Under the pieces are notes generated by a model, which made no database searches, had not been told where the DNA came from, and was given only the letters and a program-made list of their open reading frames with translations. From the IMG/VR virus record IMGVR_UViG_3300028783_000022, positions 1 to 27,219 of that record: a DNA stretch of 27,219 bases. One strand, given 5' to 3'. This DNA comes from a virus. Positions 2,068 to 27,154 of this stretch are shown in pieces. A program made the position numbers and the translations under genes. The first letter of the stretch is position 1. Every line of letters begins with the position of its first letter.

Positions 2068-2634
2068 CTACGTGGGCGCGCCGACGTGGACCGGGCAGAC
2101 CACGACGACTTCCGGCGTGCTCGACCCCTTGCGGGTTGCATGGGCCAAGCTGCACCGCCCGCTGGCGACAAGCTGCCGCAGGACCGCCTGCACGACATCC
2201 TCGGCCGGCAGCGCATCGCCGTCGTCTTCACTTTCGTCGCCGTCGACCACCTTGGTCACTGCGGCGAGGTGGATGTCCTTGGGGCTGGACAGCATGCCCG
2301 TGGTCACCGGGGCTGGCACCAGCGGGGCGACAGGGGCCGTCACCACGGTCACCGGGCCGGTCGCGGGGCCTGGGGCCGGGATCATGCCCACGACAGCGCA
2401 GGCGGCCGCCACGGCGGCGCTGGACGCCCCGGTGACCACCAGGGGCACACCAGCGAGCGTGGCGACGGCGGTGACCGCCGGGCCGTCCGCTGCAGCGTCC
2501 TTGCAGAACAACTGCCCCGTGGCCAAGGTGCTCGCCTCGGCGGTCTGGACTGCGGCGACCTGGGTGGCCGAACAGCCGGCCAGGATGAAGCCGCCAACGG
2601 CGATGGCTGACAGCAGCCCGAAGATGGAACGCAT
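2068..2634 (-). CDS. phage lipoprotein of unknown function
   Basis: The N-terminus is a lipoprotein signal peptide: Arg2, a hydrophobic stretch at 4-19, then lipobox LAGC with the lipidated Cys at 21. Ser at +2 fits outer-membrane sorting in Proteobacteria. The mature part is Ala/Val/Pro-rich with a hydrophobic patch at about 71-84, a Pro-rich region at 86-110 and an acidic cluster at 131-139. AGGAG lies a few bases upstream of the ATG. It is the last late gene, after two holin-like genes, so an outer-membrane lysis (spanin-like) role is conceivable. It is much longer than typical Rz1, and no partner i-spanin is visible. Superinfection exclusion is an alternative. Family not recognised. Confidence 0.75.
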   Translation of the reverse strand: MRSIFGLLSAIAVGGFILAGCSATQVAAVQTAEASTLATGQLFCKDAAADGPAVTAVATLAGVPLVVTGASSAAVAAACAVVGMIPAPGPATGPVTVVTAPVAPLVPAPVTTGMLSSPKDIHLAAVTKVVDGDESEDDGDALPAEDVVQAVLRQLVASGRCSLAHATRKGSSTPEVVVVCPVHVGAPT

Positions 2635-2644
2635 GTGAATTCTC

Positions 2645-2971
2645 CTATGAGGGGTCGGCGCCGAAGCGCACGGCCAGTTTGACGATCAGGCTCCAGATCA
2701 GATGCACCACGGGCGCGCAGGCCCCGGTGATCGCGATGGCGACATCGGCCGGCATGGGGGCGCGGCCGCCGCTGGCGAGCCATAGGACGATCGCGGCCGC
2801 GCCGGCGGTGCCCATGGACACGGCGCCGGTGGTGGTCACCGAGGAGGCCGTGCTGGGCTTGGCAGCGGCCGGCGGGTCAGGCGGGTCAGCAGTGGGCATG
2901 GTGTGCTCCTTGATCTTTGCGTTGATGGCGTCGAGGCGCGCCTGCAGCGCGTCTTCCTCAGTGGTGGACAC
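2645..2971 (-). CDS. holin-like small membrane protein (two TM), dual-start candidate
   Basis: From GTG 2971 the product is 108 aa. It has a short amphipathic helix (LQARLDAINAKIKEH), a Pro/Ala-rich stretch, then two hydrophobic segments at about 50-67 (MGTAGAAAIVLWLASGG) and 74-100 (ADVAIAITGACAPVVHLIWS). The pattern of a hydrophobic helix, a P.ADVA.AIT turn and a second helix resembles a two-TM phage holin family. GTG 2971 overlaps the upstream holin-like gene by 14 nt but lacks a clear Shine-Dalgarno. An internal ATG at 2899 has a perfect AAGGAG six bases upstream and would give 84 aa with both TM segments. Either or both products may be made. Inner-membrane location is predicted; the holin role is inferred from topology and context. 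Confidence 0.65.
   Translation of the reverse strand: MSTTEEDALQARLDAINAKIKEHTMPTADPPDPPAAAKPSTASSVTTTGAVSMGTAGAAAIVLWLASGGRAPMPADVAIAITGACAPVVHLIWSLIVKLAVRFGADPS
2906..2911 (-). promoter_or_regulatory. strong internal Shine-Dalgarno for alternative ATG 2899
   Basis: On the minus strand AAGGAG lies 6 nt upstream of ATG 2899, inside the 108-codon holin-like frame. It is much stronger than anything before the GTG start at 2971. Confidence 0.6.
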
Positions 2972-3179
2972 GGCGGCGAGCCCGGCGACGGCGCATGCGG
3001 TGCAACCGCAGCCACTTCTGGACGGTCTTGGTCTCGTAGATGCAGACCAGGAACCAGGCCATCGACACGATGGACGCCAGCGGAGGCAGCAGCGAAGTCA
3101 GCGCGCCGGCCAGCGCGACCGTCGAGGCAACGTGTCCCACGATCTGATCCCAGGTCCAAGAGTGATGTTCGGCGTCCAT
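2958..3179 (-). CDS. putative holin (73 aa)
   Basis: The product has a short polar N-terminus (MDAEHHSWTWDQIVGHVAST), a hydrophobic helix at about 15-30, a LLPP turn, a second helix at about 36-49 (SIVSMAWFLVCIYE) and a very basic C-terminal tail rich in Arg. Two short TM helices with a charged tail fit a class II-type holin, which would form lesions in the cytoplasmic membrane and time lysis. The IYETKTVQKW motif after the second helix resembles small phage holins I have seen, but this is recall rather than a search. An AGGA lies 9 nt upstream of the ATG. The gene overlaps the next holin-like gene by 14 nt, suggesting a holin/antiholin pair. Confidence 0.65.
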   Translation of the reverse strand: MDAEHHSWTWDQIVGHVASTVALAGALTSLLPPLASIVSMAWFLVCIYETKTVQKWLRLHRMRRRRARRRVHH

Positions 3180-21575: not shown

Positions 21576-21881
21576 TCAATCCTCTGGATCATTGCTGGGG
21601 TTGAGGCCGTCGACCGGGCGGCCATCGAGTAGCTGGTAAAGCTCCTGACTGGTCAGGTTCAGGTGGTTCTGGATGCGGAGCCAGACTTCCCGGCGCCCAT
21701 CGAGCGCGGCCGCGACCTGCGGGTCCGCATCGAAGGTGCTCTTGTTGGCATGGCAGAACCGCGCCAGATCAGTCAACACCGCCTGCCCGGCGATCGACCG
21801 GAAGGTGGTGAGGTAGTTGTTGCGCTGGCGCCGCCAGTAGTCAATCAGGCGGCCGAACGTGCCGACATTGAGTGCCATCAT
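21576..21881 (-). CDS. Bbp19-like phage protein
   Basis: The 101-aa protein contains GQAVLTDLARFCHANKSTFD and LDGRREVWLRIQNHLNLTSQ, matching the conserved core of the Bbp19 family named after Bordetella phage BPP-1. Members are small and often encoded near the portal gene; their exact role is not established. Two adjacent ATGs (21881 and 21878) are possible; AGGTGA fits the second better. Both overlap the lysozyme stop, giving translational coupling. It probably acts in head or neck assembly, by position. Confidence 0.8.
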   Translation of the reverse strand: MMALNVGTFGRLIDYWRRQRNNYLTTFRSIAGQAVLTDLARFCHANKSTFDADPQVAAALDGRREVWLRIQNHLNLTSQELYQLLDGRPVDGLNPSNDPED

Positions 21882-22537
21882 TCACCTGTCATGAACAGGG
21901 TGCGCTCGGCGGCGCGGCGGCGCACGAGGCCACGAAGCTGGTGGCCCCCCGCCATCGTCCAGTCGAGGAAGTAGTCGGACGCGCCCGTGATGTCGCCGGA
22001 GTTCAGCGAGCGCAGCAGGCGGCTCGATGCGAAGTTCCCGGCGCCGATGTTGTAGATCAGGTCCGTGAGGGCCACGCGCTGGTTGTCCGTGATCGGCACC
22101 GTGACGTAATGAGCGACATAGCCGACCGCTTCCGTCATCTCCTCGGCGAGCCACGCCAGCGCGGTGGCCGCGTCGATCGGGGGAGTGTGCTGCGTCACGC
22201 GCGTCGGGGGCGTATTGCGACGGTCCCAGATCGAGCCCGTGCCGATCGTCCAGACGCCGGCCGGGTCCGCATACGCCTCGAGGAACGTGCCCTCGAAGGG
22301 CGTGGCGAACGCGGCAGCGCGCTGCGCGATGGAGACCGCCGCCGGCGCCGCTGCGGGCGGAGCCGCGACCACGGGAACCGGCGGCGGGGCAGCCGGTGAC
22401 GCAGTTGCCGCCGCGTTTGTCCCGGCCGCGTCCTGTTCTTTGATCTCTTTCAGGAGCAGCGCTTCCTCGGCTTCGAGGTCCTGTAGTTGCTTGAGGGCGG
22501 CCTCGACCTGGGCCTCGAGGATTGCTTTGTCGGTCAC
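21878..22537 (-). CDS. GH24 (T4-type) lysozyme with N-terminal coiled coil
   Basis: Residues 80-219 match phage-type lysozyme. FEGTFLEAYADPAGVWTIGTG provides Glu82, Asp91 and Thr97, the same spacing as T4 lysozyme Glu11/Asp20/Thr26. DNQRVALTDLIYNIGAGNF and RGLVRRRAAERTLF follow. It would cleave the MurNAc-GlcNAc bond of peptidoglycan. Residues 5-36 form a charged helix (LEAQVEAALKQLQDLEAEEA and onward), joined by an Ala/Pro linker (40-68). There is no cleavable signal or SAR segment, so export would depend on a holin, or the protein may be virion-associated. GTG is the start; AGGAGG lies 8 nt upstream. It lies between portal and Bbp19-like genes, far from the holin-like genes. Confidence 0.85.
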   Translation of the reverse strand: MTDKAILEAQVEAALKQLQDLEAEEALLLKEIKEQDAAGTNAAATASPAAPPPVPVVAAPPAAAPAAVSIAQRAAAFATPFEGTFLEAYADPAGVWTIGTGSIWDRRNTPPTRVTQHTPPIDAATALAWLAEEMTEAVGYVAHYVTVPITDNQRVALTDLIYNIGAGNFASSRLLRSLNSGDITGASDYFLDWTMAGGHQLRGLVRRRAAERTLFMTGE

Positions 22538-24822: not shown

Positions 24823-26259
24823 TCAGGACCATAAATCGAAGTCAACGTCTTTCGCTTGGTCCCCTTGGCCACGGCCCCGGGGGTCCGGCGCCTTGCCCAT
24901 CGGCACCACCTTGGCGAAGCGCTGCATCATCGGCAGCTTCTCGCTGGCGGACATCAAGTCGTCGTTCAGCTTGACGATCAGGCCGTCCTTGCGGTGGTAG
25001 CTCCGGTATTCTTCGAACCAGTCGCCGAGGTGCGCCGCGACCTTCCAGCGGCCGGTCGACATGCGCAGGCTGATCTGGGCAACGGCGGCCTCGCGGGAGT
25101 AGCCGCCCTCGGGAAACGTCGCGTGCTCCTGGAGCATGCGGGCGCCTTCCTTGCGGTAGGTGGTCGCCAGGACGATGCCCGAGCCCTTGTCCCGCTGCGT
25201 GCCATCGTGCGGCCAGGCGACGGGCGCGCCGGCGCAGATGTTGCGCATCGCGCGGACGTGGTGCAGCGGGTCCTGCCCCGCCATGCGGACGGCGGCGATG
25301 ATGTGCCAGATGTCCTGGTCGCGGTCCCAGGCGCCGAGCACCGCGGCGAAGTTGTGCTCGATGCCGAAGTCGATGCCCCAGAGCTTGGCCCAGTGCCCCG
25401 GCACGGTCTCAAGGGTCGGCTCGGTGATGCTCTCCTCGAGGTGCTCATAGACGCGGCCGCTGCCGAGCATGGGGATGCCACGGACGCGGGCGTCGCGCTG
25501 GTAGGCCGGGTAGCCGGCGATGATGCGGTCGCGCTCCTCGACCGGGATGTGCTCCGCGTCCATCAGCGTCATCGTGACGACGGTGCGGTCGGGGGACGGC
25601 TCGGACAGGTATTTGGTGACGACCTTCGACTTGCCCTTGAGCGGCGTGAAGGTGCCGATCAGCATGCCCTTGGTCGCGGTGATGCGCGCCAGCAACTCGG
25701 TGTAGATGTCCTCGGGCGGCTCCTCGTCCCACCAGACCCAATCGAGCGTCGCGCCCTGGAGCTTCTGCCGGCCCTGCTCGTAGGACTTGAACATCCCCAT
25801 CGAAGTGCCGCCGGAGATGTGACGGACCTGGATCATGTCGTAGCCGTCCGTGACGCCGCGGCCAAGGGTCGGCTTGTCGGCGAAGGCGTCGCACGGGATG
25901 TAGCCGGTGCCGAAATCGTCCACGACGCCCGGGTTCCCGCAGAGCTTCATCTGGGAGACATCGCGCGTGGCCAGGCCGGTCTCGCCGACGATCCACCCCT
26001 TGGTCGGTCGGTCCCAGCGCCGGCCGAGCCACCATTCGGGATACTCGCCGGTCAGGTGGCACGACACCTCGAAGGCACCCGTCTCCGATTTGCCGACCTG
26101 GTTGCCCGCCATCAGCAGCCGCTCGCGCGCCCAAGCACCAGTGTCGAGGAAGTCCTGCTGCTTGGGGTAGGGGCGGAAGAACAGCTTCTTGTGGTAGGTG
26201 CGGAGGCGTTTCAGTTCCTCGAGCGCAGCGACCGCCTTCTCCGGGGAGACGGTGCTCAT
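24823..26259 (-). CDS. terL: large terminase subunit (ATPase and nuclease)
   Basis: The 478-aa protein has Walker A AGNQVGKSE (51-59), Walker B LDWVWWDEE (172-180) with the catalytic acidic pair, and coupling motif IGTFTP (201-206). The RNase H-like nuclease carries GIDFG (295-299, Asp297), HDG (351-353, Asp352) and a C-terminal LNDDLM (431-436). It powers DNA translocation into the procapsid through the portal and makes the packaging cuts. The set of motifs and size suit podovirus terminases. ATG 26259 overlaps the stop of the 44-aa microgene as ATGA, so its translation is coupled. Confidence 0.92.
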   Translation of the reverse strand: MSTVSPEKAVAALEELKRLRTYHKKLFFRPYPKQQDFLDTGAWARERLLMAGNQVGKSETGAFEVSCHLTGEYPEWWLGRRWDRPTKGWIVGETGLATRDVSQMKLCGNPGVVDDFGTGYIPCDAFADKPTLGRGVTDGYDMIQVRHISGGTSMGMFKSYEQGRQKLQGATLDWVWWDEEPPEDIYTELLARITATKGMLIGTFTPLKGKSKVVTKYLSEPSPDRTVVTMTLMDAEHIPVEERDRIIAGYPAYQRDARVRGIPMLGSGRVYEHLEESITEPTLETVPGHWAKLWGIDFGIEHNFAAVLGAWDRDQDIWHIIAAVRMAGQDPLHHVRAMRNICAGAPVAWPHDGTQRDKGSGIVLATTYRKEGARMLQEHATFPEGGYSREAAVAQISLRMSTGRWKVAAHLGDWFEEYRSYHRKDGLIVKLNDDLMSASEKLPMMQRFAKVVPMGKAPDPRGRGQGDQAKDVDFDLWS

Positions 26260-26390
26260 GGCTGGGGCACCTCGGGGTAGTCAGGGACGAACGGCAGCGG
26301 CTCGGGCGGCGGTGGCTCCATGGAGAGCCCTGCGACCGCGAGGACCAGCAGCACGGCCACGTAGAGCACCAGGAACGTCTCGATCTTCAT
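26256..26390 (-). CDS. 44-aa membrane microprotein between terS and terL
   Basis: Codons from ATG 26390 give MKIETFLVLYVAVLLVLAVA, continuing with GLSM and a Pro/Glu-rich tail (EPPPPEPLPFVPDYPEVPQP). The N-terminal 23 residues are one hydrophobic segment, so the product is probably anchored in the inner membrane with a short proline-rich tail. AGGGG stands 6 nt before the ATG. Both ends overlap their neighbours by 4 nt as ATGA, which strongly suggests a real gene. The family is not recognised. The start of the segment could also be read as an uncleaved signal. Confidence 0.7.
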   Translation of the reverse strand: MKIETFLVLYVAVLLVLAVAGLSMEPPPPEPLPFVPDYPEVPQP

Positions 26391-26533
26391 CTTGTGCCCC
26401 TAATGTTTCTCTCGAGCCACCACGCGACGCGCAAGGGCACCCGGTCGAGCCACACGATGCACCACGTCAACCGATAGATGATCCGGGTCCGCCGTGGGAT
26501 GTCCGCGTCGGAGTTGAACCAGGGCTCCTTCAC
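26387..26533 (-). CDS. 48-aa Trp/Arg-rich microprotein between terS and terL
   Basis: From GTG 26533 the product reads MKEPWFNSDADIPRRTRIIY, then RLTWCIVWLDRVPLRVAWWL and ERNIRGTR. It has five Trp and ten Arg among 48 residues, with a hydrophobic-aromatic core that may associate with membranes. AGGAGG lies 7 nt before GTG 26533. GTGA overlaps the TerS stop, and ATGA overlaps the next microgene. GTG 26536 is an alternative start one codon earlier. The precise overlaps and strong ribosome-binding site support translation. Function unknown. Confidence 0.7.
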   Translation of the reverse strand: MKEPWFNSDADIPRRTRIIYRLTWCIVWLDRVPLRVAWWLERNIRGTR

Positions 26534-27105
26534 CACTCGTCCTCCTGCACGCTAACATCGCTGGTGTTAGCGTCGATGGTGACCATCTCGCCGGCCAACA
26601 GCTTCTGCGGGTCGACGCCGAGTTCCTTGGCCAGGGAGTTGAGCCGGTCGAGCACCGCCGCGCCTGAGCCGCTGTCGCCGGTGTCGACCTTGATGTTGCG
26701 CTCGAGCACCTCCGGCATGCCCGTGCGGTTCAGCACCGCCGTCGCCGCCTTGAGCCGGTCCTTGTGGAACTTGTCCTCCATGATCTCGACCAGCACCGAC
26801 ACCGCGGTGAACTGCGCGCCGTGAAGCTGCCGGAAGCCCTCCTCCTTGAGCGCCTCGACCACCGCGGGGTTCCGCGCTAGCTTGGAGCCCATCGCCCGCA
26901 GCATCTCCTCGGACGACGCCGAGTAGCCGGCCAGCGCGGCGGACTTGGTGCGGTTGCCGCCGGTCAGGATCATCGCGGCGACGAACGCCTGCTGCCCGGG
27001 GACCAGGCCGCGCATCTTCGGCCCCAGTTCACCCTCCGGGGGTATGAGGGCCAAAGCGGTGGCGGGCGGTGCGAGAGGGGTTCCCATGGCGACCGGAGCA
27101 TGCAT
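26530..27105 (-). CDS. terS: small terminase subunit
   Basis: The 191-aa product from ATG 27105 includes GQQAFVAAMILTGGNRTKSA followed by ALAGYSASSEEMLRAMGSKL, a helix-turn-helix like those of small terminases that recognise packaging sites. Then comes a helical oligomerisation region (LKEEGFRQLHGAQFTAVSVL and onward) and an acidic C-terminus (VSVQEDEW). It is the first gene of the late cluster, as expected. The start is uncertain: TTG 27126, ATG 27105 and ATG 27087 are all in frame and none has a clear Shine-Dalgarno. The stop overlaps the next start as GTGA. Confidence 0.85.
   Translation of the reverse strand: MHAPVAMGTPLAPPATALALIPPEGELGPKMRGLVPGQQAFVAAMILTGGNRTKSAALAGYSASSEEMLRAMGSKLARNPAVVEALKEEGFRQLHGAQFTAVSVLVEIMEDKFHKDRLKAATAVLNRTGMPEVLERNIKVDTGDSGSGAAVLDRLNSLAKELGVDPQKLLAGEMVTIDANTSDVSVQEDEW
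26541..26546 (-). promoter_or_regulatory. strong Shine-Dalgarno of the 48-aa microgene inside terS
   Basis: Minus-strand AGGAGG lies 7 nt before GTG 26533 and inside the last codons of terS. It is one of the best ribosome-binding sites in the cluster and decides the microgene start. Confidence 0.7.
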
Positions 27106-27154
27106 TGGTTCGGGTTGTGATGTCAAGGCCGAAATTCTGGCTGGTCCGCGCCGG

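Follow-up and report, generated by a model that had tools for sequence, protein, structure and literature searches.

The window analysed here is the whole of the 27,219-nt virus record IMGVR_UViG_3300028783_000022, which represents a phage known from metagenome sequence only. On its minus strand, the gene for the terminase small subunit (terS, 26530..27126; Pfam Terminase_2, E 4.5e-6; phrog_51, E 6e-10) is separated from the gene for the large subunit (terL, 24823..26259; Pfam Terminase_6N, E 2.5e-25, and Terminase_6C, E 4e-12; phrog_2) by two orphan microgenes, here called A and B. Microgene A (26387..26533, minus strand) has 48 codons and begins with a GTG that overlaps the stop codon of terS. 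In the same way, microgene B (26256..26390, minus strand) has 44 codons and begins with an ATG that overlaps the stop codon of A, and the ATG of terL overlaps that of B. The junctions terS/A, A/B and B/terL read GTGA, ATGA and ATGA, with a 4-bp overlap each. The AGGAGG ribosome-binding site of A (26541..26546, minus strand) is found within the 3' end of terS, 7 nt upstream of the GTG at 26533, and the AGGGG site of B (26397..26401, minus strand) within the 3' end of A, 6 nt upstream of the B ATG, while a GAGGTG lies 8 nt upstream of the terL ATG. The frames, lengths, coordinates and three 4-bp overlaps of the microgenes, together with their AGGAGG and AGGGG sites, agree exactly with an earlier note on this DNA. 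An alternative start for microgene A is the GTG one codon upstream, at 26536, which would give 49 codons; the start at 26533 is favoured because the AGGAGG is spaced 7 nt from it as against 4 nt from 26536. The listed start of terS is a TTG at 27126, an internal ATG being also possible. Among the other late-gene junctions listed, a 4-bp overlap was observed in one only, that of the endolysin gene with 21576-21881.

The two products differ in composition. Protein A contains 5 Trp and 9 Arg, with a net charge of +5 and a pI of 11.2; it is amphipathic, with a moment up to 0.63, and has no segment above a Kyte-Doolittle (KD) value of 1.7. Protein B has a single strongly hydrophobic segment at residues 6-24, whose mean KD of 2.71 is the highest among the late genes listed, followed by an acidic proline-rich tail; it has 10 Pro and no cysteine. 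Composition and hydropathy are thus in agreement with the earlier description of a Trp/Arg-rich product and of one with a single membrane segment and a proline-rich tail. AlphaFold modelled A with a helix at residues 12-47 (mean pLDDT 76) and B with a helix at residues 3-22 and an extended tail after it (mean pLDDT 82), models that count as weak evidence since the input was single sequences. According to the positive-inside rule of membrane topology, the uniformly hydrophobic segment of B and its acidic, proline-rich tail suggest that the tail lies outside. B would therefore most likely be a membrane or exported protein in an N-in, C-out orientation. A would be a basic amphipathic helical peptide, perhaps acting at a membrane surface.

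The tiling of the gap was compared with a null model of 100,000 shuffles, in which the dinucleotides of the gap were kept and its flanks fixed. Two frames tiled the gap in 10% of the shuffles, and exact tiling alone is therefore weak evidence and not striking in GC-rich DNA. Tiling with both frames of at least 40 codons occurred in 1.2% of the shuffles, and in 0.3% when a ribosome site before B was also present. None of the 100,000 combined tiling with a second frame whose hydrophobic segment had a mean KD of at least 2.5, a level exceeded by B. In parallel, B scored higher for codon usage than 99.6% of equally long wrong-frame stretches. The score of full-length A is poor and falls inside the wrong-frame range; GC at its third codon position is 0.87 versus 0.47 and 0.53 at the other two. 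The poor stretch of A corresponds to its last 8 codons (including AGA, ATT, AGG, ACA and AGA), which contain the ribosome-binding site of B, and this site may be the cause of the rare codons there. Without them, the synonymous codon choice of A is placed among those of true genes and its score is reached by 19 of 741 wrong-frame stretches, a result that counts less than a planned test as the removal was decided after the full-length result. Two other frames, one on the minus strand (26400-26558) and one on the plus strand (26198-26824), were rejected for their non-coding codon statistics.

From the tiling-chance figures and the codon statistics, B is thus very likely a real gene and A probably one. 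The proposal of the earlier note that these are real, coupled small genes of a kind easily missed is a likely one, with the qualification that the codon usage of full-length A is atypical. It could also be argued that one or both frames, and A more readily than B, are non-functional, A being either a translated spacer that moves ribosomes on to B and terL or a chance frame in GC-rich DNA. The frequency of tiling among the shuffles would fit such a view, as would the full-length codon score of A and the lack of homologues described below. Nevertheless, long frames together with a ribosome site are rare among the shuffles, the codon usage of A is gene-like once its end is left out, and B lies far outside the null in both codon score and hydrophobicity. 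We consider this explanation doubtful.

Neither protein had a significant match in PHROGs, Pfam or NCBIfam, the best for B being phrog_27643 (E 0.13). By tblastn in phages, A gave chance matches only (E 3-5) and B gave none, a search in which part of B may have been lost to the low-complexity filter of BLAST. Unfiltered local tblastn of A and B against related loci returned chance-level matches only, a distant blastn search of phages with the gap sequence returned short chance-like ones only, and a viral-contig search with A retrieved the same species only. The terL matches consisted of four near-identical contigs (L002, L003, L016 and L043) and then of sequences with at most 60% identity. A portal search added about 60 contigs with at most about 65-70% identity, and one host-genome scan with TerL detected distant relatives only (34-49%). 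The relatives found through terL or portal contained no homologue of either protein outside the phage's own species.

Two of the near-identical contigs, L002 and L003, cover both microgenes, and they are identical to the window there. Almost every difference that they show in terS, terL and portal is synonymous, which indicates that these three genes are under selection and is uninformative for A and B. The same-species contigs are invariant over A and B, and no intermediate relatives were found. Contig L002 (1-1735) also runs about 1.6 kb past the window: upstream of terS it has about 850 bp without a convincing gene, then an opposite-strand frame of 236 aa, and this region beyond terS is possibly a divergent control region. 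In L003, the endolysin N-terminal region (window 22362-22534) carries 4 amino-acid changes (T2A, I32V, P53L and A59V), unlike terL and portal, which vary almost only synonymously in this contig.

The terS-terL slot was compared in 33 relatives besides the phage's own virus, all with homologous terS, terL and portal genes and with near-duplicates removed. About 14 of the 33 have no intervening gene, either because the terL start lies at the terS stop or close by, or because no frame fills the gap. About 18 have one or more small intervening frames unrelated to A and B, and one (L130) is ambiguous; these counts are approximate, as the gap frames are ORF predictions, some of them with weak third-position GC contrast. 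An overlap of 4 bp between the intervening frame and the terS stop was observed in 11 of the 18, and 4-bp overlaps at the terS-terL joint are common across the clade with or without gap genes. Gap frames such as those of L116 (74 aa), L105 (60 aa), L145 (40 aa), L007 (145 aa) and L154 (181 aa) resemble A and B in their slot and in their ATGA/GTGA coupling, but they encode different proteins with no detectable homology to either. Nearly all gap proteins of the relatives are also unrelated among themselves, the sole clear homologous pair being that of L099 and L103 (53% identity). Most appear soluble and are without known function. A resemblance to exported peptidoglycan enzymes was noted for two of them, the gap protein of L154, which matches DPBB_1 (lytic transglycosylase, RlpA-like; Pfam E 2.8e-19), and that of L007, which has a hydrophobic N-terminal segment and a TIGR02594-like domain (E 9e-10, below the curated cut-off). 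In L154, the RlpA-like gene (2011-2556 of that contig) overlaps a 33-aa membrane frame.

Since the slot is empty or filled with unrelated frames in the relatives, A and B are not conserved parts of the packaging machinery, and neither qualifies as a conserved packaging accessory gene. The suggestion of the earlier note that they act with packaging is in this respect unsupported. The strict coupling of terS, A, B and terL is what could lead one to propose that the two proteins assist packaging or set the ratio of TerS to TerL synthesis. However, 4-bp overlaps are common at the joint whatever the gap contains, and B looks like a membrane protein; we regard such a role as very unlikely. Genes between terS and terL have also been described in Burkholderia phage CSP3, in which 15 ORFs were found there, an arrangement deemed unusual by its authors (PMC10269572). 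Like A and B, these are genes without known role inserted at this position, whereas the present case involves two microgenes only, an exact tiling with 4-bp overlaps and a slot that varies among relatives.

Spanins are the other group of small proteins with which A and B can be compared. An o-spanin can be a short protein whose tail, a short periplasmic domain, is often rich in proline, the i-spanins have an N-terminal membrane segment and a long helical periplasmic domain, and unimolecular spanins combine an N-terminal lipoylation signal with a C-terminal membrane segment. In the T7-like phage AP5, the gene order is holin, terS (18), Rz/Rz1 (18.5/18.7) and terL (19) (PMC4283147), and an o-spanin needs a lipoprotein signal with a lipobox cysteine, [LVI][ASTVI][GAS]C or a variant of it (PMC6139136). 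The Rz/Rz1 genes of T7-like phages are thus, like A and B, small genes between terS and terL, and one of their products resembles B in its hydrophobic N-terminus and proline-rich tail. On the contrary, A and B offer no lipobox cysteine and no i-spanin-like periplasmic domain, they are not nested and they have no family match. As a candidate o-spanin of the Rz1 type, B has an N-terminal hydrophobic segment and a proline-rich tail, the latter presumably on the periplasmic side, and is rejected for lacking the cysteine. As a unimolecular spanin, B was rejected for having an N-terminal segment only and no cysteine. As an i-spanin of the Rz type, A was rejected as well, having no segment above KD 1.7 and a predicted helix of 36 residues that is basic and amphipathic.

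B, perhaps together with A, might nonetheless be a true spanin-type lysis factor and a divergent counterpart of T7 18.5/18.7. Its position, its very small size and its o-spanin-like architecture are consistent with this. But the cysteine-free B cannot have a lipobox, A has no membrane segment at the threshold used and is much shorter than the periplasmic domain of an i-spanin would have to be, neither protein matches a family, and elsewhere, at 2068-2634, the phage encodes a lipobox-containing lipoprotein; we find this assignment unlikely. A cysteine-free device for lysis or envelope disruption, in which A as a cationic amphipathic helix and B as a membrane-anchored proline-rich tail would act as two peptides from the slot of the T7-like spanins, is in our estimation highly improbable.

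Other genes of the window are also candidates for lysis. At 2068-3179 of the minus strand lie a small membrane-protein gene of 73 aa (2958-3179), a second one of 108 aa that overlaps it by 14 bp (2645-2971) and the lipoprotein gene (2068-2634; 188 aa, lipobox LAGC). These three genes had no significant family matches, and they possibly make up a lysis-type cluster that closes the late operon. The endolysin, a phage lysozyme (21878-22537, minus strand; Pfam Phage_lysozyme), is encoded between the portal and putative scaffold genes and has an N-terminal extension that is charged, then alanine/proline-rich. Given the genes at 2068-3179 and the endolysin, the phage has lysis candidates besides B, and with membrane-protein and lipoprotein genes present elsewhere in the window there is no need to assign lysis to B. 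That B is tiny and has a single strongly hydrophobic segment could also make it a holin- or antiholin-type peptide regulating the timing of lysis, but B has no family match and the small membrane proteins at 2645-3179, encoded beside the lipoprotein gene, are equal or better holin candidates. We judge a holin-type function quite improbable.

The explanation that we favour, to which we would give about an even chance, is that both microgenes are real accessory genes, coupled to their neighbours and occupying a variable terS-terL slot in a clade of podovirus-like phages. The frames with their overlaps and ribosome sites, the codon signal, the variability of the slot and the lack of detectable homologues are direct observations. 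The translation, topology and function that we infer for the two microgenes would be as follows. The late mRNA would be read through A and B by coupled re-initiation at the 4-bp overlaps, each microgene having its own ribosome-binding site. B would be a single-pass inner-membrane or exported protein with its proline-rich acidic tail in the periplasm, and A a basic amphipathic helical peptide, perhaps at the membrane surface. A role of B in the envelope or in lysis is the leading guess, by analogy with the spanin genes found in the same slot of T7-like phages. Against the accessory explanation stands the fact that neither protein has a homologue outside one virus species.

If translated, A and B would add two orphan proteins without family match. 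Phages are already well known to carry small orphan genes with 4-bp coupling overlaps, and the finding is of modest interest in this regard. The position between terS and terL is by itself insufficient to call a gene a packaging factor. The comparison with relatives points to an accessory-gene slot inside the packaging operon, whose contents differ among relatives and in which tight coupling is often kept.
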